Shown here: positions 6,977 through 46,885 of the stretch, piece after piece
Layout: the number at the start of each line of letters is the position of its first letter
Position numbering within the stretch: the first letter of the stretch is position 1
IMG/VR virus record: IMGVR_UViG_3300008050_000037
Span: 1-64,000 of that record
Direction: 5' to 3' (one strand)
From: a virus
DNA: 64,000 bases
Translations under genes and position numbers: made by a program
Notes under the pieces: generated by a model
The model's database searches: none
Told to the model about the DNA's origin: nothing
Seen by the model: the letters and a program-made list of their open reading frames with translations, nothing else

Positions 6977-7053
6977 TGGTTGACCCGGTGGGACTTGAAC
7001 CCACGACTCCCACCTTATAAGGATGACGCTCTAACCTACTGAGCTACGGGTCA
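6977..7053 (-). tRNA. tRNA-Ile (anticodon TAT), CCA encoded
   Basis: Acceptor stem TGACCCG/CGGGTCA, D stem GCTC/GAGC, anticodon stem TCATC/GGTGG with loop CTTATAA, and a T arm with GGTTCAAGTCC. The 3' end includes ACCA. The anticodon TAT reads AUA. Most bacteria instead read AUA with a CAU anticodon modified to lysidine, so this is an alternative solution. A promoter-like motif lies just upstream. Confidence 0.9.
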
Positions 7054-7096: not shown

Positions 7097-7279
7097 TCAA
7101 GACTCAGAAATAAGAAGTAGTGTTTCTTCTCGTCGACTGTGCTCTTCGCCTTCAAGTATATATAATCTAACAGATTTTCCATCTCGTTCGCTTTCAATGA
7201 CCTCTACAATCATTTTGGCCGGATAGATTTCTTTGTAGTTTGAATAGCTTGAAGGTATTACTAAATCACCGACTTTCAC
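7097..7279 (-). CDS. MKVGDLV-family protein 1
   Basis: 60 residues from a GTG start inside the end of the previous gene. The N-terminal signature is followed by a short loop (SSYSNYKEIYP) and a MIVEVIES strand. The usual V-x-W strand is replaced by VRLYILEGE. This is the last member of the array in transcription order. Confidence 0.7.
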   Translation of the reverse strand: MKVGDLVIPSSYSNYKEIYPAKMIVEVIESERDGKSVRLYILEGEEHSRREETLLLISES

Positions 7280-7466
7280 TGATCAGCTCCAGCTCTTCGA
7301 CGCGGAATACGCACCTGCCGCCAGTGCTAGTCAGCATTACCTCTACGCGGTGGATCCAGTTAGCGGGTGATGGTTGGAAGATGTTTGTCACCAGTCCCTT
7401 AGTACGACCGTAGTTTCCTATTGTGGAATATGCTTCGCTCGCCATAACCAAATCACCGACTTTCAC
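7266..7466 (-). CDS. MKVGDLV-family protein 2
   Basis: 66 residues with a GTG start. Signature, then GLVTNIF and a VEVMLTS strand; it ends ELELISESR, whose last codons are the start region of protein 1. The overlap with its neighbours is 14 bases on both sides. Confidence 0.75.
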   Translation of the reverse strand: MKVGDLVMASEAYSTIGNYGRTKGLVTNIFQPSPANWIHRVEVMLTSTGGRCVFRVEELELISESR

Positions 7467-7641
7467 TGAAATACTCCTTTAAGACTTCTTCCATCGCATC
7501 GTGGACTCGCCTCTCAAGATCGATAGCTCGTAGCTTGTCCAAATCTAAGTCGAATGGAATATCTACTCGGCACTCAACAACACTTGGTCCGATTGAAATA
7601 TGGTAGTGTGCGCCAGGAGTCTGGCATTTATGTTCCCTCAC
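7453..7641 (-). CDS. Non-family protein embedded in the array
   Basis: 62 residues from GTG (MREHKCQTPGAHYHISIGPS). It lacks the MKVGDLV signature. A beta-like first half is followed by a helical half (LDKLRAIDLERRVHDAMEEVL). It still ends SESR because its stop lies in the start region of the next gene, and it overlaps the gene before it. It is evidence that unrelated genes have been dropped into the chain. No function was recognised. Confidence 0.6.
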   Translation of the reverse strand: MREHKCQTPGAHYHISIGPSVVECRVDIPFDLDLDKLRAIDLERRVHDAMEEVLKEYFSESR

Positions 7642-7822
7642 CTACAACCTCGATAAACTTTTCGTCCATTGGACCTCCGTAATGGAAGTTCGCGGACGGG
7701 AGTGGGTGCAAGTCCCAGTAAGCTGTTCGTCCAACATAATCGTCATCCATCTTTGCCCTACCAAGAACAATATAGTAACCAACTTTCGCTGGTAAAACTT
7801 GTACTAGGTCACCCACTTTCAT
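7628..7822 (-). CDS. MKVGDLV-family protein 3
   Basis: 64 residues with the start set at the ATG at 7822, where MKVGDLV begins; a longer frame to 7846 would overlap the upstream gene more deeply. Signature, YYIVLGRAK strand, YWDLHPL; it ends EVVGEGT. Confidence 0.75.
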   Translation of the reverse strand: MKVGDLVQVLPAKVGYYIVLGRAKMDDDYVGRTAYWDLHPLPSANFHYGGPMDEKFIEVVGEGT

Positions 7823-7988
7823 TAACCAACACCATGCGAGGCTCAACCGTCCACACGGGATCCTCTCCTTCGATAGTCAAAGATTGAATCTTCCACCAAC
7901 GATTGCCAAACTTGCAGCCTCTATCTCTCTCGACCAAAATGTAATAACCATCTTTTTCAAGTAAAGTAACTAAATCACCCGCCTTCAT
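7809..7988 (-). CDS. MKAGDLV-family protein 4
   Basis: 59 residues, too short for a 60-residue cut-off. MKAGDLVTLLEKDGYYILVE, then RWWKIQSLTIEG; it ends LVNESG with the stop inside the next gene's start. A 17-base duplication of its own start lies directly upstream. Confidence 0.75.
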   Translation of the reverse strand: MKAGDLVTLLEKDGYYILVERDRGCKFGNRWWKIQSLTIEGEDPVWTVEPRMVLVNESG

Positions 7989-8005
7989 AAATCACCCGCC
8001 TTCAT
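7972..8005 (-). repeat. 17-bp tandem duplication of a gene start
   Basis: The word AAATCACCCGCCTTCAT (plus strand) occurs twice back to back at 7972-7988 and 7989-8005. On the minus strand the first copy makes a six-codon frame MKAGDL ending in TGA (TTATGA) that overlaps the real ATG of protein 4. It looks like a recent slip or duplication of the MK-GD start module. Confidence 0.85.
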
Positions 8006-8241
8006 TTTATATACATATACGTGATCATATCGTCGGCTTCTTCGATAATATCACCCGAAGGGAACCACTTAACTTCGTAAGATTCCTCTTCAAAATCACC
8101 GTCGGCCGATGGCACGCGGCGCAGAACTATTCCAACATTCCATTCGTATATTTCTGCTGCTGAATATCCAATACCACTGATCAGATTTTTCTTCTCGCTT
8201 GGAGAAAGTTTAACTAAATCGCCAACTTCAAACTTTGTCAC
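8002..8241 (-). CDS. MKVGDLV-family protein 5, long form
   Basis: 79 residues with the start set at GTG 8241 (MTKFEVGDLVKLSPSEKK), 8 bases after a GAGGTT site. It has a longer first loop with an SPSEKKNL helix, then NVGIVLRR and YEVKWFPSGD. It closely resembles the protein at 13532 (KFKVGDLVTLSSSERK, VRWFPSGE), so these two form a subfamily. Confidence 0.75.
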   Translation of the reverse strand: MTKFEVGDLVKLSPSEKKNLISGIGYSAAEIYEWNVGIVLRRVPSADGDFEEESYEVKWFPSGDIIEEADDMITYMYIK

Positions 8242-8434
8242 AAATAACCTCAACGCAATGCGATGGTGTCCAGGCTTCTTGTGGACCGTATTCGTCGGAA
8301 AACCAATAAATCCAAGCGCCTGGGCAGCTGCCTTCTCCATGTTCGATATCGTGCAAGTTTAAGACAATCCCTGTATGACCAACAAAATATGCACGGCCAG
8401 GGTTAGACCATCTTACTAAATCACCGACTTTCAC
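8228..8434 (-). CDS. MKVGDLV-family protein 6
   Basis: 68 residues with a GTG start that overlaps the upstream TAG (TAGTG). Signature, GHTGIVLNL, WIYWFSDEYG, and an end different from the ESR form (VEVICDKV) because the next gene starts differently. Confidence 0.78.
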   Translation of the reverse strand: MKVGDLVRWSNPGRAYFVGHTGIVLNLHDIEHGEGSCPGAWIYWFSDEYGPQEAWTPSHCVEVICDKV

Positions 8435-8637
8435 TATGGATTCCCCATAGTATTTTCGTCTTCTTCTGGTTCGGGCGTGTGTCTCAAGTCTTCGATACTG
8501 TGATATTCATTAAAGTTTCGATCGCCAAATCGCACAACGGCTTCCGGGGGACAGGTGTCGACGCGCATAACAAGTCCCGGCACAGCACAATCGTCACGAA
8601 TGTCATCGGCATGCCAGACCAAATCACCTACTTTCAC
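8434..8637 (-). CDS. MKVGDLV-family protein 7
   Basis: 67 residues with a GTG start. Signature, PGLVMRVD, AVVRFGDRN, then an acidic tail (EPEEDENTMGNP) instead of the usual ending. Confidence 0.75.
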   Translation of the reverse strand: MKVGDLVWHADDIRDDCAVPGLVMRVDTCPPEAVVRFGDRNFNEYHSIEDLRHTPEPEEDENTMGNP

Positions 8638-8801
8638 TTACAGCCCTCGCACCTACCTTTAAGATAGTCCGCGACTATATCACCAATGACATCCATCACG
8701 GCTTCAAAATCATCTTCATCGTCAAGGCAGCGCGACGAACATCTCTCAGCTAGAGCATCGCGTATAGAATCTTTAAGATTAAAAAAATCACCCGGCTTCA
8801 T
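8634..8801 (-). CDS. Small helical protein with MKPGD start
   Basis: 55 residues read by hand. It starts MKPGDFFNLKDSIRDALAER, keeping the family's first residues, but the rest is helical and acidic with four Cys (ERCSSRC and GRCEGC) instead of an SH3-like pattern. It may be a chimera in which the start module was joined to another gene. The cysteines could bind metal. Confidence 0.6.
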   Translation of the reverse strand: MKPGDFFNLKDSIRDALAERCSSRCLDDEDDFEAVMDVIGDIVADYLKGRCEGCK

Positions 8802-9006
8802 TTAGAACCTCCAGCCAACCAGCGAGCATACAATCTCGGCCCCCACCTTCTTCTGCTAAGTGTGCCGGTGAAACCCAACGAACCCACCAGCGATGTACAC
8901 GCCGCTTGTGTTGCCGGTATACAATGCCGATCGGGTAGTATTGCTCGCCTCCAATATCGTCTGGTCCCCAAGGGTCAGCACTTTTTACCAAGTTACCGAT
9001 TTTCAT
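8788..9006 (-). CDS. MKIGNLV-family protein 8
   Basis: 72 residues with the start set at ATG 9006 after a GGAG site. MKIGNLVKSADPWGPDD, PIGIVYRQH, WWVRWVSP; it ends LEVLNEAG inside the next gene's start. Confidence 0.78.
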   Translation of the reverse strand: MKIGNLVKSADPWGPDDIGGEQYYPIGIVYRQHKRRVHRWWVRWVSPAHLAEEGGGRDCMLAGWLEVLNEAG

Positions 9007-9188
9007 ATTTTCTCCAGCCATCTGTAACTGTTCCAAGATTCTTGTGGACAGCCCCTTGGAGGGTTACACCAGTATACGAAATATCCGCATCTGTCCTCCG
9101 CGATCGCGTTTAAGTCTACCTCAACTATAATCCCCAAGCCGCTGCGGTCAAGGGCATGCGTATTATTTACCAAGTCACCGACTTTCAT
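9003..9188 (-). CDS. MKVGDLV-family protein 9
   Basis: 61 residues. Signature, GLGIIVEVD, YFVYWCNPP, end YRWLEKI. Its TGA overlaps the next ATG (ATGA). Confidence 0.78.
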   Translation of the reverse strand: MKVGDLVNNTHALDRSGLGIIVEVDLNAIAEDRCGYFVYWCNPPRGCPQESWNSYRWLEKI

Positions 9189-9372
9189 CGAATGGTCTCA
9201 ACTCGTTGGGCATATAACCATAAACTGTACGTGGAGTGTCACCGCCGAAAAGAGACCAATGCACATCGATGAGTGTTATCCCATTGTGCTTTGACACCCT
9301 TACAACAATACCAGTCGACGTGCGCGTGTAGCCGGGTCGATCGCGATGGCGCACCAAATCACCGATTTTCAC
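9175..9372 (-). CDS. MKIGDLV-family protein 10
   Basis: 65 residues with a GTG start. Signature, STGIVVRVS, IDVHWSLFG; ends ELRPFDESR from the overlap with protein 9. Confidence 0.78.
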   Translation of the reverse strand: MKIGDLVRHRDRPGYTRTSTGIVVRVSKHNGITLIDVHWSLFGGDTPRTVYGYMPNELRPFDESR

Positions 9373-9541
9373 TTAACATCTCCAAAAGTTCGTGGTCGAG
9401 AGGATACAGCCCACTGTGTTCGGATTTGCCAAACCAGTGAATGATAGCCTGACCTCCCCACTTATCCTCGTCTATTTCTATAATGATGCCGACGTCTTTC
9501 GCGTGTGGGTGTATCCACTTAACCAGATCACCGACTTTCAT
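9359..9541 (-). CDS. MKVGDLV-family protein 11
   Basis: 60 residues. Signature, DVGIIIEID, AIIHWFGK; ends MLSENR because the next gene starts with an AAAATC codon pair rather than AAAGTC. Confidence 0.78.
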   Translation of the reverse strand: MKVGDLVKWIHPHAKDVGIIIEIDEDKWGGQAIIHWFGKSEHSGLYPLDHELLEMLSENR

Positions 9542-9722
9542 TGATAACCTCTATTTCGTTCTCAGTAAAAGGATAGGGACTAGACCAGCCTTGGTAAAGC
9601 ACTAAATAGTTAGTTGACCAAGCACCGGCAGGCACGTATTGCACATCTTTGATTCCAGTGATCACGCCGATTTTACCAGCGTTGTGATTTTTGGTAATAC
9701 GAACCAAGTCACCGACTTTCAT
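9528..9722 (-). CDS. MKVGDLV-family protein 12
   Basis: 64 residues with the start set at ATG 9722 behind GGAGGTTATCA; the longer frame is overlap with the upstream gene. Signature, KIGVITGIK, YLVLYQGW, ends IEVINESR. Confidence 0.78.
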   Translation of the reverse strand: MKVGDLVRITKNHNAGKIGVITGIKDVQYVPAGAWSTNYLVLYQGWSSPYPFTENEIEVINESR

Positions 9723-9912
9723 TGATAACCTCCAGTATACACAACTGATAATGACCAGCCGCCGTGTATTTGCAAGCCCACTCAACATAGGCAGAGCCCT
9801 GACAAGGCTGCGAAGGGTGCGGCGGCTCAGGTAAATCCTTAAAGCGCAATACAATACCGAAAGGGCCACTGACCCTGTGGCCTGTAAACTTTACCAAATC
9901 ACCGACTTTCAT
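9709..9912 (-). CDS. MKVGDLV-family protein 13
   Basis: 67 residues. Signature, GPFGIVLRF, AYVEWACKY, ends LEVINESR. It is preceded by the variant promoter-like motif at 9918 and a 31-base gap, so it heads the left half of the array. Confidence 0.8.
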   Translation of the reverse strand: MKVGDLVKFTGHRVSGPFGIVLRFKDLPEPPHPSQPCQGSAYVEWACKYTAAGHYQLCILEVINESR

Positions 9913-9917
9913 ACTAC

Positions 9918-9929
9918 AACCATAGAAAC
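9918..9929 (-). promoter_or_regulatory. Variant promoter-like motif GTTTCTATGGTT
   Basis: Minus-strand GTTTCTATGGTT differs from the main word at two positions. It sits about 6 bases from the ATG of protein 13, which is very close for a promoter of a normally led message, so this call is weaker. Confidence 0.35.
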
Positions 9930-9943
9930 CAAAAAATTAAAGT

Positions 9944-10165
9944 CTAGGCTTTTTGGATTATTGTTACTAAGCCTTCAGCCAAGGCATCTTCGCCAAGGTC
10001 ACAGACGTAGGAAATACTCGGCCACTTTATCTTCCACGAGGGCATCACACCATCTGGGTATTCCGCAAGTTCGCCGACTACGCCCACTTCATAGCCAGAA
10101 CCAACGGACACAACAAGGCCTATCTCACCGTCATGCGTATCTTGAACCAAATCACCGACCTTCAC
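9944..10165 (-). CDS. MKVGDLV-family protein 14
   Basis: 73 residues with the start set at GTG 10165, where VKVGDLV begins after GAGGTCATCA. Signature, EIGLVVSVG, WKIKWPSIS, with a longer C-terminus (GEDALAEGLVTIIQKA) and no overlap downstream. Confidence 0.75.
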   Translation of the reverse strand: MKVGDLVQDTHDGEIGLVVSVGSGYEVGVVGELAEYPDGVMPSWKIKWPSISYVCDLGEDALAEGLVTIIQKA

Positions 10166-10328
10166 TGATGACCTCAATATTCGCCTTGAAAGGGAGCGTG
10201 ACTTTCCCGTCGGGCCACAGTACCTCACACGCTTCACTACTATGTGACCATGCCTTTACGATAATCCCATAGACCTTTTCAATACCAGGGATGGGTACAG
10301 TGCGTCTTACCAAATCACCTACTTGCAT
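10152..10328 (-). CDS. MQVGDLV-family protein 15
   Basis: 58 residues read by hand. MQVGDLVRRTVPIPG, VYGIIVKAW, CEVLWPDGK, ends IEVISEGR inside the next start. GAGGTTATCA precedes its ATG. Confidence 0.78.
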   Translation of the reverse strand: MQVGDLVRRTVPIPGIEKVYGIIVKAWSHSSEACEVLWPDGKVTLPFKANIEVISEGR

Positions 10329-10521
10329 TGATAACCTCTATACTACTTCGGTACTCAGGCATTGCATATGACACCGCCCATCTTTCGTCTGTCCATTCTG
10401 AATCGTACTTGTTCCACAATACAACAGGGTCATTATCTTCATCGTAGTCTACAATCACGCCCACATATCCATCATTTCTTCGCGGACCGTGGACTGGTAT
10501 GACCAAATCACCGACTTGCAC
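10315..10521 (-). CDS. MQVGDLV-family protein 16
   Basis: 68 residues with the start set at GTG 10521 (signature QVGDLV); a TTG two codons earlier is possible. YVGVIVDYD, PVVLWNKYD, ends IEVINASR. Confidence 0.75.
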   Translation of the reverse strand: MQVGDLVIPVHGPRRNDGYVGVIVDYDEDNDPVVLWNKYDSEWTDERWAVSYAMPEYRSSIEVINASR

Positions 10522-10693
10522 TGACAAGCTCCAAGGCGTATTTGGCGCAGCTTCCCGGCTCGCGGTCTGGCATTGTCGACCACTTGACCCGGCATCGTCT
10601 GGCCTGAGCCTCTACCGAGATAATGATTCCAATACCATACATTTGCGGTGGTGCTACGGCTGGTCTCATCTTTACCAAATCACCGACTTTCAC
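10508..10693 (-). CDS. MKVGDLV-family protein 17
   Basis: 61 residues with the start at GTG 10693. KVGDLVKMRPAVAPP, GIGIIISVE, CRVKWSTMP, ends LELVSASR from the overlap. Confidence 0.75.
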   Translation of the reverse strand: MKVGDLVKMRPAVAPPQMYGIGIIISVEAQARRCRVKWSTMPDREPGSCAKYALELVSASR

Positions 10694-10835
10694 TGACAAT
10701 CTCCAGGCCAATAGTATAGTTGTCTGCATCTTCAACTGTGCCGTCATCGAGCCATCTTATCAATGTCTCGTAGGACTCGACACAGATGACGAGAGCAAGG
10801 TATCCGTTATGCTCTACCAAATCACCTACTTTCAT
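10680..10835 (-). CDS. MKVGDLV-family protein 18, shortest
   Basis: 51 residues with the start at ATG 10835. MKVGDLVEHNGYLALVICVE, TLIRWLDDG, ends LEIVSESR. The loops are minimal, so it shows the core of the fold. Confidence 0.75.
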   Translation of the reverse strand: MKVGDLVEHNGYLALVICVESYETLIRWLDDGTVEDADNYTIGLEIVSESR

Positions 10836-10998
10836 TAACAATCTCGCAGGCTTCTTTGACATATACCTTGGTGAACCACTCGATTCTTCCGTTAGGACAC
10901 AGTATACCATATGGTGTCCGACACGTATCGTCTTTAATCGTTACCAATAAGCCCATTTCAGAATACTCACTGTCTTTTATCAAATCACCGACTTTCAT
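10822..10998 (-). CDS. MKVGDLI-family protein 19
   Basis: 58 residues with the start at ATG 10998. MKVGDLIKDSEYSEMG, GLLVTIKDD, RIEWFTKV, ends CEIVNESR. Confidence 0.75.
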   Translation of the reverse strand: MKVGDLIKDSEYSEMGLLVTIKDDTCRTPYGILCPNGRIEWFTKVYVKEACEIVNESR

Positions 10999-11164
10999 AG
11001 TGATACTCCACATCGTCAGATTCTATTCCTTCGATTTCTCCATCGGACCACAAACATTCGAGCCAAAAGTTTTGTTTCAAGGGTCCGTGACCGGCAGGTA
11101 TACCTGAAACATCTAGAATGATAGCAAACTCGCCACCACACTTTATCAAATCACCGAGTTTCAT
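10985..11164 (-). CDS. MKLGDLI-family protein 20
   Basis: 59 residues with the start at ATG 11164. MKLGDLIKCGGEFAIILDVS, LECLWSDGE, ends EYHYESR. Its start codons give the embedded pyrophosphohydrolase its NETR ending. Confidence 0.75.
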   Translation of the reverse strand: MKLGDLIKCGGEFAIILDVSGIPAGHGPLKQNFWLECLWSDGEIEGIESDDVEYHYESR

Positions 11165-11456
11165 TAACTTTCTCCAAAATAATCCGGTCATAGAAAGCGC
11201 CTCGTTTTTCTCGCTTATCCACAGCAACACTTTCAACACCTTCCATTGAAAAATGGTGTAGTGTACAAAGAGCCCTCAAGACCTCAAATATATCAGCTGC
11301 CTCTTCGTAAGAAGGATTCTCGATAAACTCTTCAAGCTCCTCTTGCATTTTCTTACACAAAAAATCTTGGTATTCGTCTAAGCCAGCGATGTGATAAACA
11401 CACGTTTTCCCACCATCTTCAATAATCTTTGGGATGCCGTCTCTAACTAGCTTCAC
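11151..11456 (-). CDS. MazG-like nucleotide pyrophosphohydrolase
   Basis: 101 residues, GTG start. KLVRDGIPKII, then the all-alpha metal-binding pattern KMQEELEEF and YEEAADIFEVLRAL, then a C-terminal RGAFYDRIIL. This matches the short MazG-like family annotated as phosphoribosyl-ATP pyrophosphohydrolase-like, which hydrolyses (d)NTPs to monophosphates and pyrophosphate. It is inserted in the SH3-like array with the same 14-base overlaps (it ends LEKVNETR). In a phage it could clean or reshape the dNTP pool. Confidence 0.85.
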   Translation of the reverse strand: MKLVRDGIPKIIEDGGKTCVYHIAGLDEYQDFLCKKMQEELEEFIENPSYEEAADIFEVLRALCTLHHFSMEGVESVAVDKREKRGAFYDRIILEKVNETR

Positions 11457-11640
11457 TTATAACCTCCAACTCATATTCGCTCCACCATCCAATCTCTTTC
11501 TTCCAGTGAACCTCAAAAAATACTATACCATAGTCATCTTCATAGGCATCTAAAACAATACCATATTTACGCTCTTCAAAATCAGCACCAAGCACATTGG
11601 TGATGCCAGGACGTAATCGAACAACATCACCGACCTTCAC
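11443..11640 (-). CDS. MKVGDVV-family protein 21
   Basis: 65 residues with a GTG start. Signature MKVGDVVRLRPG, KYGIVLDAY, FEVHWKKEI, ends LEVISEAS. Confidence 0.78.
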   Translation of the reverse strand: MKVGDVVRLRPGITNVLGADFEERKYGIVLDAYEDDYGIVFFEVHWKKEIGWWSEYELEVISEAS

Positions 11641-11818
11641 TTACGACCTCCAAAAAATCGCAGCGGGCGAACAGTGTTGGCTTGTGGCAACCAGCCCACA
11701 AGATGTAGGGGCTCCAACCCCAGGATCCGCAGCGCATAACGAGGCCGATATCATCGGGTGTTCGACCATAAGTTTTGCATACTCCCGATTCAATCCTTAC
11801 TAAATCACCGATCTTCAT
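11627..11818 (-). CDS. MKIGDLV-family protein 22
   Basis: 63 residues with an ATG overlapping the upstream stop (ATGA). MKIGDLVRIESGVCK, DIGLVMRCG, YILWAGCHK, ends LEVVSEGR. Confidence 0.78.
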   Translation of the reverse strand: MKIGDLVRIESGVCKTYGRTPDDIGLVMRCGSWGWSPYILWAGCHKPTLFARCDFLEVVSEGR

Positions 11819-12042
11819 GCCCTGCTCATAATGTGAAACATATCGTCAGCGCTCACAAAATCTTCAGCGTTCCAGGGGTCTGTCAAAGTTTTGTTAGCAA
11901 CGCTCCAGACAATTTCAACCATAAGTCGATAATCATCGAAATATGTTCTTAGCACAATACCAATATCGCCATCGGAACACCCAATCATATCGCCGGTATT
12001 CGGATATCCTGGGCCGTTATTTACGTCCATAGATATATTCAT
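11815..12042 (-). CDS. Divergent SH3-like protein of the array
   Basis: 75 residues. An N-terminal extension (MNISMDVNNGPGYPN) precedes TGDMIGCSDGDIGIVLRTYF and VEIVWSVAN, so the core pattern is kept but the start module is not. A shorter start at the second Met is possible. It overlaps both neighbours. Confidence 0.7.
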   Translation of the reverse strand: MNISMDVNNGPGYPNTGDMIGCSDGDIGIVLRTYFDDYRLMVEIVWSVANKTLTDPWNAEDFVSADDMFHIMSRA

Positions 12043-12271
12043 CTTTTTGTTTCCGTGCCAATTGCTTGAATCTGTACTCAGCCTTCTGGGCTGAAGATCG
12101 ATCTTCGAAGACTGTCTGATAAATCAACTCAACAGGTCTTCTTGTCTTCGTATATTTCGCGCCTGTAGACAAAGCGTTGTGCTCTTTAAGGCGCCGGGTA
12201 ATATCCGTTGTTACACCTGTATAATAAGTACCATCGGCGCAAAGTAAAACATAAAGGTACCAGTTTTTCAT
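12017..12271 (-). CDS. GIY-YIG nuclease-domain protein (YhbQ-like)
   Basis: 84 residues. WYLYVLLCADGTYYTGVTTD corresponds to the GIY-YIG core, followed by the conserved Arg and helix (RRLKEHN), GAKYTKTRRPVELIY and KAEYRFKQLARKQK. This is the full-length small UPF0213/YhbQ-type domain, as in bacterial YhbQ and URI proteins. Such domains cut DNA; in phages they occur in homing or repair enzymes. No DNA-binding extension is present, so a stand-alone nuclease role is likely but unproven. Confidence 0.9.
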   Translation of the reverse strand: MKNWYLYVLLCADGTYYTGVTTDITRRLKEHNALSTGAKYTKTRRPVELIYQTVFEDRSSAQKAEYRFKQLARKQKDEYIYGRK

Positions 12272-12567
12272 ACAGCACTGATAACCTTAAACAAGGGAAA
12301 GCCACTTCGACTTTTGATAGCGACGAAGCACTCACCAATATTGTCCCTACGTTCGGCGAAAATGCGATCGCCTTCGGCATTATACATAGATGGGCGCGGG
12401 CCTGTGCCATCGAGCCAAAAAACTTTCACCATCTCTGTTTCCTTGAGATGGTCGAGCCATGTGTTTTTGGCAAAGCCCAAAACCAGTGCTCGATGAGTCG
12501 ATCCACCTGAGTTGAACCAAACCAAATCGCCCGTGTTGATATTCAAAACCCACCCTTGCCCCGCCAC
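12268..12567 (-). CDS. Long SH3-like protein heading the array
   Basis: 99 residues from a GTG at 12567, or about 92 from a TTG just before NINTGDLVWF. The core is NTGDLVWFNSGG, HRALVLGFA, VKVFWLDGTG, with a longer tail (SRSGFPLFKVISAV). It is a divergent member of the family. The start is uncertain. A perfect 14-bp palindrome lies 24 bases upstream. Confidence 0.65.
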   Translation of the reverse strand: MAGQGWVLNINTGDLVWFNSGGSTHRALVLGFAKNTWLDHLKETEMVKVFWLDGTGPRPSMYNAEGDRIFAERRDNIGECFVAIKSRSGFPLFKVISAV

Positions 12568-13531: not shown

Positions 13532-13759
13532 CTATTTCTCTTTCGTCAACAAAATAATTGAATTATTGGTTTCTTCGTGAAGCTCTCCAGAAGGAAACCA
13601 TCGTACAAGATATTGAAATAATGAAGTTTTTTGTTTTGGATGTGCTTCAATAACCAGCCCATAATTCCAGTCATCAAAGGCTGTCAGTCCGGCGTCTTCT
13701 TTCAATATCTTTCTTTCAGAAGACGACAGGGTTACCAAATCGCCAACTTTAAATTTCAT
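13532..13759 (-). CDS. MKVGDLV-family paralogue outside the array
   Basis: 75 residues, MKFKVGDLVTLSSSERKILK, NYGLVIEAH, YLVRWFPSGELHEE. It is closest to array protein 5 at 8002 (shared first-loop helix and WFPSG). Its ATG overlaps the upstream stop (ATGA). It lies about 1 kb from the array, so the family has dispersed. Confidence 0.75.
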   Translation of the reverse strand: MKFKVGDLVTLSSSERKILKEDAGLTAFDDWNYGLVIEAHPKQKTSLFQYLVRWFPSGELHEETNNSIILLTKEK

Positions 13760-13990: not shown

Positions 13991-14980
13991 TTAAACTTTG
14001 TATTTACTGTCAGAAAAAAATATCTCTACATTTGAGAACTGTTCCTCAATGAATTCTGTAAATTGCTTTTCACCTTTAAATTCATATAACTCACCGTTAT
14101 TAAGTAGTTTCCAGGTTTCCAAATTGCGTAAAATATCAACTTTGTTCAAGACAAGCTTATTGATACCATTGATATTTATTGCACGCCGAAGGGTATTCAA
14201 CTCCAAAAAATTACATTGACGGGGGCGGCCAGTTGTGGCTCCGTATTCTTCCCCCGCCTCACGTACGCGAGCAAAAAACTCTACTTGCTCTTTTGGCTCA
14301 AATTGTTTTGAGCCAACATAAGTTTCGTATACTTTTCCTACTCCCCATACATCGCGTATCCAAGTGTGAGGAACAGCATTTAAAAGTGCCCCTGCGGTGC
14401 CGACGTGGCTAGAAGTAACAAATGGATAATCGCCCCAATCAATATCCAGGCTGAATCCCTGCGCTCCCTCACATAAAACTTTAACCGATTTGTCTCCATG
14501 AAATTCCTCATATAAATCAACTATATACGGCCTTAAAGAAGGCACGTCTTTTGCTTGTATGCCGACTCTTGCGTGCTTATCGCGGTAGGCCGGTCCATTT
14601 CCTCGTTTTGTTGTTCCAATTTTTGTCTCGTAATTCTCTTCCATAATGTGAAGGTCTGTAATCACATGTGTGTTGTGGGCAATAAAAACCTTACCATCGG
14701 TGTCAATTCCCCCTTCTTTAAGTTCTTGTAGTTCTTTAAAAAATTGTGGAGGACTCACAACACATCCAGGGCCTATAATTGATTTAATTCCATAAAATAC
14801 TCCTGCTGGGATATGGTGTGTTACGAATTTACGACCTTCGTGATAAATCGTATGGCCGGCGTTGCATCCGCCGTTAAATCTTAGTACATGCGTATAATCC
14901 TTACACTTGCATAAGTAGTGTGTTACTTTTCCTTTCGCCTCGTCTCCATGTTGTACTCCAATTACCACATCTGCTAACAC
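13991..14980 (-). CDS. purA: Short PurA-like adenylosuccinate synthetase
   Basis: 329 residues against about 430 for bacterial PurA, near the length of archaeal PurA and phage PurZ. Seen motifs: QHGDEAKGK (P-loop with the catalytic Asp kept), NGGCNAGHT (catalytic His), IGTTKRGNGPAY, EGAQGFSLDIDWG, ATTGRPR and NKVDIL. PurA joins IMP and aspartate using GTP, the first step from IMP to AMP. PurZ does the equivalent with dGMP to make diaminopurine DNA and has Ser at the Asp position as I recall it, so plain PurA is the default reading. The segment after GRPR (QCNFLEL) departs from the usual GWxD. The GTG start overlaps an upstream TAG (TAGTG). Confidence 0.85.
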   Translation of the reverse strand: MLADVVIGVQHGDEAKGKVTHYLCKCKDYTHVLRFNGGCNAGHTIYHEGRKFVTHHIPAGVFYGIKSIIGPGCVVSPPQFFKELQELKEGGIDTDGKVFIAHNTHVITDLHIMEENYETKIGTTKRGNGPAYRDKHARVGIQAKDVPSLRPYIVDLYEEFHGDKSVKVLCEGAQGFSLDIDWGDYPFVTSSHVGTAGALLNAVPHTWIRDVWGVGKVYETYVGSKQFEPKEQVEFFARVREAGEEYGATTGRPRQCNFLELNTLRRAININGINKLVLNKVDILRNLETWKLLNNGELYEFKGEKQFTEFIEEQFSNVEIFFSDSKYKV

Positions 14981-15251: not shown

Positions 15252-17123
15252 TTAAGCGTACTCGGCATCAATGATATCATCATCGCCGCTTTGGGACGGC
15301 GGGACGTCTTCCTGTTGGCTTTCTTCTTTTTGTGCCTCATACAAAATCTTGCTTGCCGCATGAACCGCCTTTTCTAAGTTGGTATACGCGGCTTCGTAAG
15401 CTTCCGCATTTGAATTTTGAACTGCATTTCTTACTTCTTCCATGGACGCCTCAACCTGCTGTCTGGAGTCGTCATCTAATTGATCCTTATTCTTGATAAC
15501 ACTTTCTGCCTGAAAAATTAAAGTATTTAGCTTGTTCGTCCACTCAACCTCGTGCCTTTTCTTTTTGTCTGCCTCTTCGTTTTCTTTTGCGTCTTGTACC
15601 ATACGATCGATATCGGCATCGTTTAGCCCACTGGCATCAGCTATTGTTATATCCTGCTCTTTTCCAGTGGCTTTGTCTTTGGCAACAACACTCAAGATGC
15701 CGTCTGCGTTAATATTAAAAGTTACTTCAACTTGAGGTACGCCCCGGGGAGCCGGGGGAATTCCGTCTAGAGTAAAATTGCCCAGAGTTCTATTATCGGA
15801 AGCCATTTGGCGCTCACCCTGTAGTACATGAATAGTGACCGCTAGCTGATTGTCATCTGCCGTGGAAAAAATTTGTGACTTTTTTACCGGTACCGTTGTA
15901 TTTCTTTCAATCAAAGCCGTGCATATGCCGCCTAAAGTTTCAATACCCAGACTCAAAGGTGTTACGTCCAATAACAAAACATCACTTACATCGCCAGACA
16001 AAACACCTCCTTGTACAGCGGCGCCAAGAGCAACAACCTCATCTGGATTGACACTATGACTAGGCTCTTTCCCAAAGAAATCTGTTACTCTTTTGGCAAC
16101 CAAGGGAATTCGTGTCGAGCCTCCGACGAGAAGTACTTCGTCGATATCTCCAACTTTCTTTCCGGCATCTTTTAGCGCCTTCCTGCACGAAGTAAAAGTC
16201 TTTTTAACCAAGCCGTCGATCATCGTTTCAAATTTCGATCGCTCAATGCTAACGGTCAGGTGTTTTGGACCGGTCGCATCAGCGGTTAAGAAAGGAAGAT
16301 TGACCTCTGTTCTAACGGTAGAGCTTAGTTCCTTCTTGGCTTTTTCTGCGGCTTCTCTGAGACGCTGCATGGCCATAGGATCACCCGAAATATTAATACC
16401 AGTGTCTTTCTTAAATTCTTTAAGCAAATGCTTAATAATCTTTTCATCAACATTATCTCCTCCCAGGCGTGTATCACCAGAAGTCGATAGTACTTCAACG
16501 ATATCCTCGCCCACTTCTAAAATAGACACATCAAAGGTGCCGCCGCCAAAATCATATACAGCAATAACCTGATCGGACTTGCTTCCAAGACCATAAGCCA
16601 AAGCTGCAGCAGTCGGCTCGTTGATAATGCGCTTAACTTTCAGACCAGCAATCTTTCCAGCATCGCGCGTCGCTTGCCGTTGGCTATCATTAAAATAAGC
16701 CGGCACAGTAATAACTGCTTCTGTTACTTCGCCTCCAAGATACTTTTCAGCTGATCTCTTCAGCTTCTGCAACACTTTCGCACTCAATTCTGGCGGGCTA
16801 TATTCTTTTCCAGAAACCATAATTGAAGCCTGTCCAGAAGCGGCACGTGCCACTTCAAAGGGCATATTTTCTGCCGATTCCTTTACTTCGTCATAGCTCG
16901 AACCTATAAAACGCTTAACTGAATAAATAGTTTCCTTGGGTTTTACAACTGCTTGGCGGCGCGCGGTGGCACCCACCAAAACTTCTTCGTCGTTTCCAAA
17001 ACCAATCACTGAAGGAGTTGTTCTACTGCCTTCCTCATTTACAAGAACCTTGGGTTCTCTACCTTCCATAACGGCTACACACGAATTCGTGGTACCTAAA
17101 TCAATTCCAATAATTTTTGACAT
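15252..17123 (-). CDS. dnaK: DnaK (Hsp70) molecular chaperone
   Basis: 623 residues, full length. ATPase domain: [17 protein letters not shown], then [33 protein letters not shown] and LVGGSTRIP. Next come the linker [18 protein letters not shown] and a substrate-binding domain. The helical lid and a C-terminus [10 protein letters not shown] follow, much like the bacterial EEV(K)D-type acidic tail. It refolds proteins in the cytoplasm with DnaJ and GrpE, which are not encoded here, so host partners are likely. It is very close to bacterial DnaK, suggesting acquisition from a host. It lies in one run with the SpoU methyltransferase upstream. Confidence 0.97.
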
Positions 17124-18700: not shown

Positions 18701-19144
18701 TTATTCTCCTTTCTGACGGTCATACATTGTAACGCCATTCAGATGATCTATTTCGTGTTGTACACAAACACATTCTAGGACATTTTTATCTGCACCGAAA
18801 TACAAAGTGTCTATGTGATTGTCTGCTTTGACAGCGATATTCTCATAGCGTTCGGTTAAAACATAGTCACCTGGGAATGAAAGACAAGCTTCGGTGTATG
18901 ATATTTTTTTAAATTTTCCGATGATTCTTGGATTAATCAAAATCAAAGGCTTTGTGACATTTATCACGCACACTCTCTTGTCTAGGCCAATTTGGTTAGC
19001 GGCCAGTCCGGCGCCAGATTTAATTTGACTTAAAATTTCTAGCAGCTGCTTTCCAATTGCAATTCCCTCTTCGACGTTCTTGTACGTTTTGCAGGGAGCA
19101 GAAAGAAAATCCCTATCTTGTATTATTTTGATATCCATACACAT
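18701..19144 (-). CDS. def: Peptide deformylase
   Basis: 147 residues with the three family motifs: GAGLAANQIG (motif 1), EACLSFPG (motif 2, Cys metal ligand; EGCLS in most bacteria) and QHEIDHLNG (motif 3, HExxH). It removes the formyl group from nascent proteins using Fe2+ or Zn2+. Phage versions are known from marine viruses and usually lack the bacterial C-terminal helix, as here. The gene follows the PAP2 phosphatase by two bases. Confidence 0.95.
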   Translation of the reverse strand: MCMDIKIIQDRDFLSAPCKTYKNVEEGIAIGKQLLEILSQIKSGAGLAANQIGLDKRVCVINVTKPLILINPRIIGKFKKISYTEACLSFPGDYVLTERYENIAVKADNHIDTLYFGADKNVLECVCVQHEIDHLNGVTMYDRQKGE

Positions 19145-29958: not shown

Positions 29959-32900
29959 TCAACCTAATAATTTAAAATTATGATACATTGAGCGTGTGGA
30001 GAAGCCCCACGTATCATTGTGATCTAACTTGGCCATATACGGACGGTTTAAGTGGAGTTTGTCGCTGTCTCTCACACCCCAACATCTAATCTTTGTAGCA
30101 GTCGCGGTCGTATCAATAGCGTTAACAATCCAATATGGTTTTCCATTTTTAGTTTTCTTTTTGACAACCTCTCTGGGAATGAACCAAGCAACCTTTAAGT
30201 TATTATCCCATTTTCCTAAAGGAGGCACGCAGTGCTGTTCTAGGCTAGAGATTATATCTTCGTTCATTACCAATTCAAATGGGAAAAGACCGGTTAGCTC
30301 GCTGATGTCATAAATTCTTTTTTCATTAGAAAAATCTCCCATTTTTTCATAAATTTCAATATTTTCCTTGAATCTCTTTTTATTTTTAGGACGATCATCA
30401 ACAACAGCAGCCCAAAAATGCTTAAGACCGGTAAATCTCTCATCGATTAAATCGTTCAAAGCTCCAGATCTGCACAAAGCATCCAGTCCTTTTTTGTTTA
30501 ACTTGGAATAGGTTATCTCTTCGTTGAAAAGTAGATCTTCTGGCGTGTTAAACGGTCTATGATCCATAATTTGTTTAATTGCCTTTTCTCCCAGACCTTT
30601 GATAGAGCTTAATGGTTGAATCAGAGTCTTGCTATCCTCGCTAATCTCCCACTGTAAACCCGATGTATTGATATTGACCTTTTCGATTTTAAAACCATAT
30701 TTCTTAGCTAAACTAATGGCCAATTCTTTGCGTGATTCCGGCTCTTTATCTAGAAAAGCTGCAACCCAGCATTCTGGATAATAATTTAAAAGCCAGGCAC
30801 ATTGATAAGAAAGGAGACTATAAGCGACAGCATGAGACTTATTAAACCCATACCCACTAAAATACTCAAAGTTTCTCCAGAGTGATTCTCCGGTGGCTCG
30901 ATCAATTGACTTAGTAAGGCAGCCTCTAATGAATTTTTCTCTAATTTTTTCTTTTTCTTTAACACCTTTACCTGTTCCTTTTTTCGTTAATAACTTGCGA
31001 AGTTTATTTCCTTCGTCCAGTGTTATATTTTTACCTAATTTGTGAGCCAGCAGCGCTATCTGCTCTTGAAAGATAAGAAACCCTGCAGTCTCTTCAGTAA
31101 CTTCTTTTACCAGATCATTAACGTATTGTATTTCTGAAGGATTTCGTTTTGCCTTTACGTATGATTTATCGACATTGGCGCTCAAAGGGCCCGGGCGATA
31201 AATTGATGTAATGGCAGAAATGTCAATAATACTGGTCGGTTTTGCTGATTTACAAAATCTTTGCGCGCCGTCGTTCGTAAACTGAAAGACACCGATAAAC
31301 TTACCTTTTTGAAAAATATTGGTGTATACTTGACTATCAGCAAGATCAATTTTATCTGGATGCAAGCAAGTATCATAATAATTTTTAATTTCCTGATATG
31401 AGGGATTCTCAATTCCCATATAACGTTGAAGGACATGTCCAATACAAGATTGAATCATCGCCAACGTTGAAAGGCCAAGCAAATCAAATTTAATAAACCC
31501 TAATGGCTCAAGATGTCTAACATTTTGGCCTTCGGCCCATGGAGTTTGTATTACACCCCCTCTATTGATGAGAGGCATATGTTTATCTAAATCTTCGCCG
31601 ATAACAACTCCTCCGGCATGCCGGCTGACTGAACGGACCTGTCCATATAAAGCTTCAATGTGTGTCTTAATGTGGGGATATTTCTTAAGAAATGTTTGTA
31701 GGCTATCAGAATGTTCCATTACCTCTTCAAAAGCTGGAATATATAATCCAGCCTTGATTCCTTTGGCTTGCTTCGCTTTTGGAGTGGCCTCTCTAACCAT
31801 TACATTTGTAACCTTATTAACTTCAATGAAGGGCACTTCATAAAACTTACTAATATCTTTAACCAAGGATCTCAGTTGGAGAGTGTTATAATTTGAAATA
31901 GGAACAACCGTTGTATCCCCCCATTCTTCTGCTAGAATTTCTTTCAATCCAAATGCATCGCTAACATCATAGTCAATATCAGGATAGTCAGTGGTATCGG
32001 CGCGCAAAAAACGACTGAACAACAAACCATATTTGATTGGATCAACTTGCGTAATTCCAAGCACATAGGCAACAAGGGAGCCCGCAGCAGAGCCGCGGCC
32101 CGGGCCAGAAAGCATATTATCATTCGCTTTGTCAGCAATTGCTTTCATAGTCAAAAAATATTTCGAAAAGCCACGATCCACAATTACATTCAATTCATGC
32201 TGCAGTCGCTTTGTATATTCTTCTTTTTCGCCTAGCTCCAAATTTCGAAGAGCGCCGACAGAAATTTTAAGAAGCGCTTCGTCAGCAGTTTCTCCCTCTG
32301 GTACAACAAAGTTTGGCAACCGAACAGTGTCATCTGGCATGAAGTCATCAATTCTCTCATTTGCAATATGATGGGTCTTTACAAGAGAGTCATAAATTAA
32401 ATTATCATCATATATTACACCACATTCTTCAGAGTACTTCTTGTAGGACTCCCACATCTGATCGCCATTTTTTGGATACAGTTCCATCCCCATCTCATCG
32501 ACATCGATAGGCAGCTCAGAAGTCAACCATTCTGGTTTATTAGTGCGATTAAGAAAGCCTAAGCGCCTGTATAGTTCACGATCCTTAAATGCTTCTGGAT
32601 TCGGATAATGACTGTCTGCCGTAGAAATAAGCTCTAGGCCAGTCTCTTGGTGCATTTGTATTACATATTGATTTAGCTCATGTTGCTCCGGAACATTATT
32701 CCATTGTAGCTCTCCATACCAGCGATCTCCTAAGATGCTCTGCATTTTATGCGTTGTCTCGCGCATTGCATCTAAGATTGCATCAGGTCCATCATCACGA
32801 TTGTCCCAATAATTACCAGCGTAAACACCGCCCAAACAAGCAGACGAAGCGATAATCCCTTCATTATATTTCTCTAATAAGTTATAATCGACGCGAGGGT

Positions 32901-33387
32901 AACGATAAAAGTTATCTCCTTGGTGTGTTTCCGACACAATTTTAAAAATATTGCTAAGACCTGTTTGATTTTGTGCAATCAAAACCAAATGGCGCCGGGC
33001 TTTAATAATATTATTTTTTTGCTTCGAAGCGGCTTCGTCTTCGGTGACTAATCTGCCGTCATCTTTCTCTAAATTTTTCGCCGACTTCTTGTCAGCCTTC
33101 GCTTCGTCATACGCTTCCTTCCATTTAATGATTGAGGGTACAAAATAGGCTTCGACGCCAAAAATTGGCTTAAATTCTTTACCCTCATTTTTCATCTTCT
33201 TAGCATGCATAACCTGATAAGAAGTTCCGTTCATATTGCCATGGTCTGTTAACGCCAAAGCGTTGCAACCATTCTTATATGCAAAATCCATATGGTCCTG
33301 TGGATATCCAAACCCGTCGAATGGGGATCCTACGACACTGTGTGCGTGCAGGCCCACAAATGGAATTTTGCTTTCTATTCTATTCAT
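29959..33387 (-). CDS. DNA polymerase III alpha (DnaE-like)
   Basis: 1142 residues. The N-terminus is a PHP domain (FVGLHAHSVVGSPFDGFGYP, LTDHGNMNG). The family-C palm carries GPGRGSAAGSLVAYVLGI, the acidic pair PDIDYDVSD, and the third Asp in IKFDLLGL. Fingers and helix-hairpin-helix parts follow (EKIREKFIRGC, FNKSHAVAYS, SIKGLGEKAIKQI), with a short C-terminal OB-like piece. It is close to DnaE in length. This is probably the replicative polymerase, with the family-A enzyme at 49538 as a second one. It overlaps the methyltransferase gene by 8 bases. Confidence 0.95.
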   Translation of the reverse strand: MNRIESKIPFVGLHAHSVVGSPFDGFGYPQDHMDFAYKNGCNALALTDHGNMNGTSYQVMHAKKMKNEGKEFKPIFGVEAYFVPSIIKWKEAYDEAKADKKSAKNLEKDDGRLVTEDEAASKQKNNIIKARRHLVLIAQNQTGLSNIFKIVSETHQGDNFYRYPRVDYNLLEKYNEGIIASSACLGGVYAGNYWDNRDDGPDAILDAMRETTHKMQSILGDRWYGELQWNNVPEQHELNQYVIQMHQETGLELISTADSHYPNPEAFKDRELYRRLGFLNRTNKPEWLTSELPIDVDEMGMELYPKNGDQMWESYKKYSEECGVIYDDNLIYDSLVKTHHIANERIDDFMPDDTVRLPNFVVPEGETADEALLKISVGALRNLELGEKEEYTKRLQHELNVIVDRGFSKYFLTMKAIADKANDNMLSGPGRGSAAGSLVAYVLGITQVDPIKYGLLFSRFLRADTTDYPDIDYDVSDAFGLKEILAEEWGDTTVVPISNYNTLQLRSLVKDISKFYEVPFIEVNKVTNVMVREATPKAKQAKGIKAGLYIPAFEEVMEHSDSLQTFLKKYPHIKTHIEALYGQVRSVSRHAGGVVIGEDLDKHMPLINRGGVIQTPWAEGQNVRHLEPLGFIKFDLLGLSTLAMIQSCIGHVLQRYMGIENPSYQEIKNYYDTCLHPDKIDLADSQVYTNIFQKGKFIGVFQFTNDGAQRFCKSAKPTSIIDISAITSIYRPGPLSANVDKSYVKAKRNPSEIQYVNDLVKEVTEETAGFLIFQEQIALLAHKLGKNITLDEGNKLRKLLTKKGTGKGVKEKEKIREKFIRGCLTKSIDRATGESLWRNFEYFSGYGFNKSHAVAYSLLSYQCAWLLNYYPECWVAAFLDKEPESRKELAISLAKKYGFKIEKVNINTSGLQWEISEDSKTLIQPLSSIKGLGEKAIKQIMDHRPFNTPEDLLFNEEITYSKLNKKGLDALCRSGALNDLIDERFTGLKHFWAAVVDDRPKNKKRFKENIEIYEKMGDFSNEKRIYDISELTGLFPFELVMNEDIISSLEQHCVPPLGKWDNNLKVAWFIPREVVKKKTKNGKPYWIVNAIDTTATATKIRCWGVRDSDKLHLNRPYMAKLDHNDTWGFSTRSMYHNFKLLG

Positions 33388-44990: not shown

Positions 44991-45287
44991 CTAATATCTT
45001 ACAATAATACGACGATGGTGCCGATGATGATGATATGCTCTGTTTGGCGACCTATATATATAGTGATGAATCCGGCCGCGCTTGTTATATACTGGAATTG
45101 AATTTGGTGAAATTTGACGAGTGGCCCTGGCGTGGGAAGACCCGGGATGGCCATAGTGCGCTTGGGTTGCGCTATGGCCACCATATATATGTCCGGACGG
45201 GCGATACGAATTATAATCATCCGCGTATACATAACGCGTGCATGAAGATATCATAGCAAAACAAATTAAAATTATAAACTTATTCAT
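44991..45287 (-). CDS. His-rich lipoprotein-like protein
   Basis: 98 residues. MNKFIILICFAMISSC is a signal-like segment ending in a plausible lipobox (ISSC). The mature part is rich in His, Tyr, Ser and Gly (HIYGGHSATQAHYGHPGS) with an Arg/His tail (HHHRHHRRIIVRY), suggesting metal or surface binding. The stop of the recombinase gene overlaps its start. Function unknown. Confidence 0.65.
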   Translation of the reverse strand: MNKFIILICFAMISSCTRYVYADDYNSYRPSGHIYGGHSATQAHYGHPGSSHARATRQISPNSIPVYNKRGRIHHYIYRSPNRAYHHHRHHRRIIVRY

Positions 45288-46838: not shown

Positions 46839-46861
46839 TATATTTTCCTTTTTTATAGAGT

Positions 46862-46885
46862 GAGGCACCTATAACCCCGTGCCTC
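46862..46885 (-). promoter_or_regulatory. Hairpin between SSB and prolyl isomerase genes
   Basis: A perfect 7-bp stem, GAGGCAC/GTGCCTC, with a 10-base loop lies between the SSB stop and the isomerase start. No T run follows, so it is not a classical terminator; it may be a processing or translation-control site. Confidence 0.4.

Follow-up and report, generated by a model that had tools for sequence, protein, structure and literature searches.

A 64,000-nucleotide stretch of viral DNA (positions 1 to 64,000 of IMG/VR record IMGVR_UViG_3300008050_000037, hereafter the window) carries a run of small genes that we read, with a probability of about 0.62, as an array of exchangeable gene cassettes, each for a small SH3/KOW-like protein, found in a clade of large tailed phages. 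Whole cassettes have been gained, lost and relocated from phage to phage, and the breakpoints lie at a conserved sequence of roughly 32 nt (the seam) that recurs at joints along the array, a conclusion we regard as highly likely.

The array comprises 28 minus-strand genes at 7097–12546, of which 22 are clear small paralogues, two are divergent paralogues and four, interrupting the array, lie outside the family. The 22 clear copies (ORFs within 7097–11818) start with M-[K/Q/x]-x-G-[D/N]-[L/V/I]-[V/I] and carry the later strands; the divergent copies bring the total to 24, and one further paralogue is found outside the array at 13532–13759. All cassettes share one orientation, predicted fold and joint, and the start motif was counted 16 times on the minus strand, with no occurrence on the plus strand or for a reversed-pattern control. 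Exactly 14 nt are shared by 19 consecutive gene pairs; the remaining joints are overlaps of 4, 1 or 26 nt, or short gaps. Mean column identity among the window paralogues is 19%. A preliminary description of this DNA, which reported a tandem run of more than twenty small paralogues, mostly linked by 14-base overlaps and highly divergent, was thus borne out. Strong promoters or terminators within the array did not exceed those of shuffled sequences. The features are as follows (SH3-like refers to the predicted fold; L numbers are other stretches compared with the window):

6977–7053 (-), tRNA-Ile, conserved island edge
7097–7279 (-), SH3-like cassette 1, final gene of the transcription order, GTG start, position conserved in relatives
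7266–7466 (-), SH3-like cassette 2, overlaps the next by 14 nt
7453–7641 (-), unrelated passenger gene (MREHKCQ...YFSESR), 14-nt overlaps on both sides, no match in Pfam and PHROG searches
7628–7822 (-), SH3-like cassette 3, 85% aa orthologue in L058
7809–7988 (-), SH3-like cassette 4
8002–8241 (-), SH3-like cassette 5, MTKFEVGDLV, non-canonical start yet 14-nt overlap
8228–8434 (-), SH3-like cassette 6
8434–8637 (-), SH3-like cassette 7, downstream overlap 1 nt, without ESR tail
8634–8801 (-), unrelated helical passenger gene with MKPGDF seam leader
8788–9006 (-), SH3-like cassette 8, 91.9% nt identity to L129, flanks ∼72–83%
9003–9188 (-), SH3-like cassette 9, downstream overlap 4 nt, without ESR tail
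9175–9372 (-), SH3-like cassette 10
9359–9541 (-), SH3-like cassette 11
9528–9722 (-), SH3-like cassette 12, AF2 model pLDDT 92.5, pTM 0.77
9709–9912 (-), SH3-like cassette 13
9944–10165 (-), SH3-like cassette 14, downstream gap, without ESR tail
10152–10328 (-), SH3-like cassette 15
10315–10521 (-), SH3-like cassette 16, elsewhere in the L070 array, clean edges at seams
10508–10693 (-), SH3-like cassette 17
10670–10706 (-), example seam: Shine-Dalgarno (SD), spacer, start codon, upstream gene's +1-frame stop, MKVGDLV start
10680–10835 (-), SH3-like cassette 18
10822–10998 (-), SH3-like cassette 19
10985–11164 (-), SH3-like cassette 20, other array place in L129, 96.0% nt identity
11151–11456 (-), passenger gene (MKLVRDGIP...), MazG/PRA-PH-like by motif only, no match in a Pfam search, 14-nt overlaps at both ends
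11443–11640 (-), SH3-like cassette 21, AF2 model pLDDT 87.8, pTM 0.74
11627–11818 (-), SH3-like cassette 22
11815–12042 (-), divergent SH3-like gene, orthologue in L129
12017–12271 (-), GIY-YIG nuclease-domain gene within the island, PF01541 E=1.3e-17
12268–12546 (-), divergent SH3-like gene (NINTGDLVWF)
13991–14980 (-), adenylosuccinate-synthetase-like gene, PF00709 2.5e-83, collinear flank at the other island edge
45284–46399 (-), UvsX/RecA-like recombinase, phrog_97 E=3e-59, candidate for recombination across the seam

The cassettes are translated, as judged from coding selection across copies: pooled dN/dS is ∼0.2 and, of 109 independent orthologue pairs, 108 have pN below pS, which bears out the earlier view of these frames as coding. 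A search with a tandem DNA pattern found the combination of array, overlap and motif again in at least 119 IMG/VR stretches, and each of 14 large IMG/VR records holds 10–30 copies; together with pN<pS nearly everywhere, this places the array far above chance. The carriers are uncultured, mostly marine phages, and 775 copies fall into 516 clusters at 45% identity. The family search and copy counts proposed in the preliminary description returned a family common in IMG/VR, one that searches at the sensitivity applied did not find in Pfam, PHROGs or 50,697 annotated phage records.

The proteins are free-standing, mostly 52–74 aa in length, and very probably adopt an SH3-like small-barrel fold. 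Structure prediction for two divergent copies (cassettes 12 and 21) gave five-strand SH3/KOW-like barrels (pLDDT 92.5 and 87.8), each with the 3-10 turn before the last strand that is expected of small barrels, in line with the fold first proposed from strand pattern; loop lengths vary widely among copies. Matches to PDB folds were weak (best E 0.008) and scattered over many SH3-like families, and PHROGs returned no match at E<0.001 (best E=0.0059, 25 copies).

With respect to function, the products would form a repertoire of small binding proteins against variable host components, serving host take-over or counter-defence, and cassette exchange would change this repertoire from phage to phage. 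A host-targeting role for these putative binding proteins is a real possibility, at somewhat less than even odds. Purifying selection, along with nearest relatives that lie in other phages (see below), makes a panel of proteins with different putative targets plausible. A narrower form of this explanation, in which each cassette would inhibit or decoy one host defence protein, as the preliminary description suggested, is rather unlikely: such a deck should be highly diverse, under purifying selection and often traded from phage to phage, as observed here, but other accessory functions would give the same pattern, and PADLOC, which covers defence and not anti-defence proteins, yielded no meaningful match. 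Less likely again is a set of KOW-type regulators binding RNA polymerase, the ribosome or RNA, whose many copies would work together as a single dose-dependent module in transcription or translation. Profiles matched NusG KOW at E 7e-4 to 1e-3 and uL24c at 5e-4, and Spt5/NusG KOW is among the Foldseek top matches of one model. However, the profile matches to NusG/uL24 reach only 5e-4 to 4e-3, the KOW domain itself (PF00467) had no significant match (E=0.005 for one member), the second model is closer to PetP, PWWP and Tudor folds, and the extreme divergence (19–28% column identity) is unlike that of one conserved binding surface.

The seam has the consensus TGGAGGT-nATC-A[A/G]TGAAAGTCGGTGATTTGGTAAA and provides the SD and start codon of the next gene while encoding, in the +1 frame, the last residues (ESR) and TGA stop of the previous one. 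A logo over 487 junctions, the basis together with direct repeats D1 and D2 for the example at 10670–10706, shows the SD conserved at -12 to -6, although it was absent from the search pattern. The tails ESR, EGR, ASR and ENR accompany 14-nt overlaps and do not figure among the frequent tails where genes overlap by 4 nt, and the glycine codon of the start motif is GGT in 557 of 581 overlapped starts versus 194 of 287 others (p=9e-29). The shared ends, LEVISESR-stop and MKVGD, are mostly one piece of DNA read in two frames, so the constant signature noted earlier does recur but in part reflects a seam at the DNA level rather than conservation of the protein alone; likewise, the 14-base overlap is real, but its identity as a conserved exchange seam had been missed. 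We also weighed a programmed +1 frameshift that would fuse neighbours but did not retain it, since the SD-to-stop spacing is unlike that of the RF2 site.

Unrelated genes have been taken into the array and given identical joints. The 14-nt overlap is present in 113 upstream ORFs that fall outside the family regular expression, many of them clearly unrelated, and a DUF2061 protein (PF09834, residues 8–58) bears the MKVGD leader. In the window, the passenger at 8634–8801 keeps only the MKPGD leader, and similar proteins in L129, L130 and L131 differ N-terminally; the passenger at 11151–11456 recurs in L079, L130, L131 and L074. Overlap lengths before non-family downstream genes also peak at 14 nt (n=23, vs 16 at 11 and 9 at 17), which is suggestive only of selection for exactly this overlap independent of sequence.

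Exchange was seen directly in several comparisons. L013 and L015, 99.5–100% alike, are set apart by a single cassette, and the crossover lies within ATGAAAGTCGGTGATTTGGT. Cassette 16 has moved between the window and L070 (93.7% nt identity, flanks ∼80%). L129 and L130 have the same island edges as the window and other contents, the L131 island being comparable in part; cassette 1 homologues stay at the same edge (98, 92 and 70% aa in L129, L130 and L131), and island cassettes are up to 96% identical where flanks are 70–83%. One-gene cassettes are thus gained or lost as units in each of these comparisons. Identity runs at ∼0.75, rises to 0.83–0.91 over the seam, and falls to ∼0.28–0.35 from +20 on. 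High-identity tracts end at a seam in 47 of 62 cases versus 27% expected (p=9e-16), a statistic inflated by the tendency of BLAST tracts to stop in conserved seams wherever neighbours differ. Orthologous cassettes kept their neighbour in 10 and changed it in 94 of 104 cases, whereas other genes kept it in 98 and changed it in 118 (Fisher p=4e-11, for comparisons that share records and are not independent). Neighbours changed at 8 of the few (10) 4-nt joints, about as often as at 14-nt joints (94 of 104); seam-driven exchange is therefore shown by breakpoint positions only, not by rate.

These data make it improbable that the array reflects ordinary tandem duplication and divergence by local unequal crossing-over, with the joint kept for translation only. 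The single orientation and the common fold and joint are compatible with duplication, as is the double constraint on overlap codons, and it may still account for the origin of the array. Against it, 576 copies have their best non-sister relative in a different record and only 24 have it in their own, neighbours are scrambled, unrelated genes carry the same joint, and cassettes are seen to be inserted, deleted or transplanted whole. As the principal source of present-day content, local duplication is largely refuted, since nearest relatives lie in other phages.

Neither a tyrosine integrase (PF00589; control genomes positive) nor a serine resolvase (PF00239) was found in 15 related records, some of them incomplete, and the integrase was also absent from the window's own record; we therefore infer that exchange likely proceeds by homologous recombination. 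A UvsX-like recombinase is encoded within the window, and recombination across the 20–35 nt seam would be performed by the phage's own recombinase. The GIY-YIG nuclease of the island could contribute to exchange instead. An integron-like site-specific system, in which a recombinase would act on the seam, is very improbable: one-gene cassettes of fixed orientation, a conserved joint, captured foreign genes and a weak hairpin recall such a system, but both recombinase families are absent from the 15 records, the seam is coding and overlapped, and it folds at only -1.9 to -2.9 kcal/mol, with no attC-like folded site per cassette. A mosaic-assembly artefact or non-coding repeat is scarcely credible: although nearly all the related records come from metagenomes and tandem repeats can be assembled wrongly, copies share only ∼20–30 nt, which makes short-read collapse unlikely, the frames are under selection, L051 matches the window sequence at 99.98%, and L013 and L015 agree over 11 kb.

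Through the overlaps, the cassettes would be translationally coupled within a single operon. A joint needed for translation that doubles as an exchange site means that every exchange stays in register, and the array offers phages a concrete route to keep and trade many accessory genes without an integrase. More tentatively, with the odds against it, the whole may be an integrase-free cassette system in which the coding start/stop seam is both translational coupler and homologous-recombination site, with an open pool and a predicted anti-host repertoire. The pool in that reading would hold hundreds of SH3-like binding proteins, with unrelated genes captured too and rapid reshuffling. The family itself is an undescribed one of hundreds of small, putatively host-directed phage proteins in a clade common in IMG/VR.

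The earlier impression that no described phage system is like this one is supported within the databases and literature searched, where the only equivalents found were repeats of the Start-Associated Sequence type. These SAS/ESAS repeats, 13 nt long and upstream of the start of genes from many families, occur in Cluster K mycobacteriophages and Cluster EF Microbacterium phages (PMC3203893, PMC7302621). As with SAS, the seam is short, repeated and unusually well conserved, lies at the ribosome site of numerous small phage genes, and is common to unrelated genes of different families. Unlike the GGGATAGGAGCCC type of repeat upstream of the start, it is of other sequence and centred on the start codon, spanning the SD through the start into the gene and ending the upstream gene; it also joins one paralogue set, and exchange is seen directly. 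Lambdoid phages have boundary or linker sequences, short conserved gene borders that allow module swapping by recombination; these are few and different at each border, whereas here one coding seam is repeated 10–30 times per array. Integron arrays hold promoterless one-gene cassettes in one orientation, drawn from a common pool and variable in order. The present array resembles them in these traits, but its cassettes overlap in coding sequence, with no integrase found and no attC-like site. In predicted fold and in where the V-x-x-G-D motif lies, the array proteins match the KOW/SH3-like barrels of NusG, Spt5, uL24, Tudor and PetP, from which they differ in being free-standing and without a family-level match. 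Lastly, the SPO1-type host take-over module consists of very small, tightly packed early genes, mostly of unknown role. The array is a similar cluster of very small, tightly packed genes; unlike that module, which is neither paralogous nor marked by a repeated seam, its cassettes are paralogous and seam-joined.

The window covers bases 1-64000 of an IMG/VR virus record that spans 69,192 bases and encodes a tail sheath, a UvsX-like recombinase and further functions of large myoviruses. On the minus strand between positions 7097 and 12546 lie 28 genes, comprising 22 clear members of a family of small SH3-like paralogues (cassettes) that begin MKxGD[LV], 2 divergent members and 4 others. The preliminary description had reported a shared start and 14-base overlaps linking most copies, and both were borne out: the motif occurs 16 times on the array strand and neither on the other strand nor in a reversed control, and the overlap is exactly 14 nt in 19 neighbouring pairs. 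No excess of promoters or terminators was found within the array, consistent with one polycistronic message with coupled translation, as we infer.

Beyond the array, the window carries an additional family relative, an adenylosuccinate-synthetase-like gene (a MazG-like gene, 11151-11456, lies nearby within the array), an unusually full set of proteostasis genes, and candidates for a polymerase III alpha subunit and a cysteine synthase, both unusual for a phage.

Genes of the window outside the cassette array
13532-13759, additional family relative
13991-14980, minus strand, adenylosuccinate-synthetase-like gene
15252-17123, minus strand, DnaK (checked)
18701-19144, minus strand, peptide deformylase (read from sequence)
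21258-22841, minus strand, GroEL-like chaperonin (read from sequence)
25384-26055, minus strand, ClpP-like protease (read from sequence)
29959-33387, minus strand, candidate bacterial DnaE-type polymerase III alpha subunit (by eye)
34694-35554, minus strand, candidate cysteine-synthase-like gene (by eye)
46380-46868, minus strand, FKBP-like isomerase (read from sequence)

The best PHROG match of gene 13991-14980 is phrog_1211, named '2-aminooxy adenylosuccinate synthetase' (PurZ-type), and GDEAKGK is kept at its active-site loop; its product may be PurA or PurZ (modified 'Z' DNA).

Most successive cassettes are joined by a conserved coding joint of ∼32 nt, the seam. The upstream gene ends in ...CTG GAG GTT ATC A[A/G]T GAA AGT CGG TGA (LEVI[N/S]ESR and stop) and the downstream gene begins [A/G]TG AAA GTC GGT GAT TTG GT (MKVGDLV), so that a single stretch, read in two frames, supplies one gene with its Shine-Dalgarno site (SD) and start codon and its neighbour with its final residues and stop codon. 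The SD was conserved at -12 to -6 in the 487 junctions compared, drawn from 120 sequences, despite being absent from the search pattern. The 14-nt overlap was associated with an ESR-type tail (ESR itself in 295/487 junctions), which was not among the common tails of the 93 genes with a 4-nt overlap. Gly was encoded by GGT, the codon that contributes the T of the overlapping stop, in 557/581 overlapped starts versus 194/287 others (p=9e-29), and GTG starts accounted for 51% and 11%, respectively. A weak hairpin, ATCA-G-TGA-AAG-TCG-G-TGAT, recurs across the start codon in seams (e.g. 10143-10179, minus strand), with energies of -2 to -3 kcal/mol as DNA and z down to -3.0.

The seam is not bound to the cassette family. 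Terminating on it are 113 upstream ORFs outside the family regular expression, many clearly unrelated and some divergent relatives, and unrelated genes within arrays also begin on it, such as recurrent MKLVRDxIP genes and a DUF2061 membrane protein. In the latter (related stretch L046, 1751-1952, minus-strand coordinates, 0-based start) the MKVGD leader lies outside the Pfam domain; the leader of the homologue in L088 differs from this grafted one. Window gene 8634-8801 has an MKPGDF leader, and helical proteins similar to it, as judged by eye, have other N-termini in the related records L129, L130 and L131. A GIY-YIG-like gene (12017-12271, minus strand; also in L074, L130 and L131) recurs inside or beside the array, and could be a passenger or a participant in exchange.

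Exchange at seams was seen directly. Two related stretches, L013 and L015, are 99.5–100% identical except for one gene, the crossover lying anywhere within the 20-nt ATGAAAGTCGGTGATTTGGT. Window cassette 10315-10521 occupies a different array position in L070, at 93.7% identity versus ∼80% in the flanks, with clean steps at both seams. The array and its passengers form an island edged by tRNA-Lys/adenylosuccinate synthetase on one side and tRNA-Ile/gene 6283 on the other; L129 and L130 have an island with the same edges, partly rearranged in L131, with collinear flanks (∼67–86% nucleotide identity) and cassettes that differ from those of the window and are partly reordered. Cassette 10985-11164 is 96.0% identical to its counterpart in L129.

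Statistics were drawn from comparisons that have records in common. The 775 distinct copies formed 516 clusters at 45% identity, and 576 copies had their nearest non-sister relative in a different record, compared with 24 that had it in their own, which argues for a shared pool and against local duplication as the main source of copies. Orthologous cassettes (≥60% amino acid identity, non-sister records, downstream 14-nt overlap) kept an orthologous neighbour in 10/104 comparisons (3/56 in an earlier run) versus 98/216 for other genes of ≥100 aa (p=4e-11). At changed junctions mean identity was ∼0.75 upstream, 0.83–0.91 in the seam, 0.35 at +20 to +29 and ∼0.28, near chance, beyond. Within arrays, ends of ≥90%-identity tracts fell at -25 to +35 of a seam start in 47/62 cases (27% expected, p=9e-16), a set that includes one duplicate contig (L112 and L129) and in which alignments are prone to break off in conserved seams.

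Neither a tyrosine integrase nor a serine resolvase was detected in 15 related records, nor PF00589 in the window's own record, control genomes being positive, and seam folding was weak. The UvsX-like recombinase is encoded in the window, and exchange would proceed by homologous recombination across the seam. Neighbours changed as often at the few 4-nt joints (8/10) as at 14-nt joints, so the rate of exchange does not by itself point to seam homology as its driver.

Coding bias indicated that the cassette frames are translated: across 109 independent orthologue pairs (60–97% amino acid identity, seams left out), pS was 0.51, pN 0.15 and dN/dS ∼0.2, with pN<pS in 108. Choosing pairs by protein identity biases dN/dS somewhat, yet high pS with low pN excludes neutrality. 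The small-barrel fold proposed in the preliminary description was recovered, AlphaFold2 predicting five-strand barrels for two divergent copies (pLDDT 87.8 and 92.5). Interstrand loops vary in length from ∼7 to 22 residues. The family had no family-level match in Pfam, PHROGs or PADLOC. In BFVD numerous uncharacterised viral proteins whose accession numbers lie close together (A0A516L..., A0A516M...) share the fold at up to 35% identity, and are possibly from virus bins with similar arrays.

Many divergent copies under selection, variable loops, shuffling between phages and the accessory-island setting suggest that the cassettes may form a repertoire of binding proteins directed at variable components of the host. 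Our preferred, if tentative, reading of their role would be host take-over or counter-defence (probability about 0.4). A KOW-type role in transcription or translation ranks next; Spt5/NusG KOW domains are among the PDB matches of the models, with PetP, PWWP and Tudor domains, all at weak E-values, and the predicted fold appears to be a generic SH3-like barrel.

The tandem seam pattern matched at least 119 stretches in IMG/VR and only 4 contigs, all from MAGs, among 84,980 species genomes; against 50,697 annotated phage records, tblastn searches with four copies and blastn with the seam sequence gave only weak or chance-level matches. The start pattern occurred 2–33 times per record in 49 records, nearly always on a single strand (controls 0–1), and a profile search found 10–30 copies in each of 14 large records (157–293 kb). 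Replicative helicases of most of these large records were 58–67% identical to that of the window, and of two, 42–43%. No cassette copy was found in the cultured Microcystis phage Mel-JY01 (helicase 41%), and one was found in the uncultured 484-kb LR756508 (38%). The phages appear mostly marine, judging from the recognisable source of some contigs and matches rather than a systematic survey. Three consecutive seam-type starts in a WOR-3 MAG chromosome (L123, 7481-7849; CP070664.1, 2.8 Mb) may reflect a prophage, mis-binning or chance.

Among described features, the Start-Associated Sequence of Cluster K mycobacteriophages comes closest; its authors proposed a role in regulation and possibly recombination (PMC3203893), and it has also been reported from Microbacterium phages (PMC7302621). 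The seam differs from it in sequence, in spanning both the start codon and the stop of the upstream gene, and in linking an array of paralogues.
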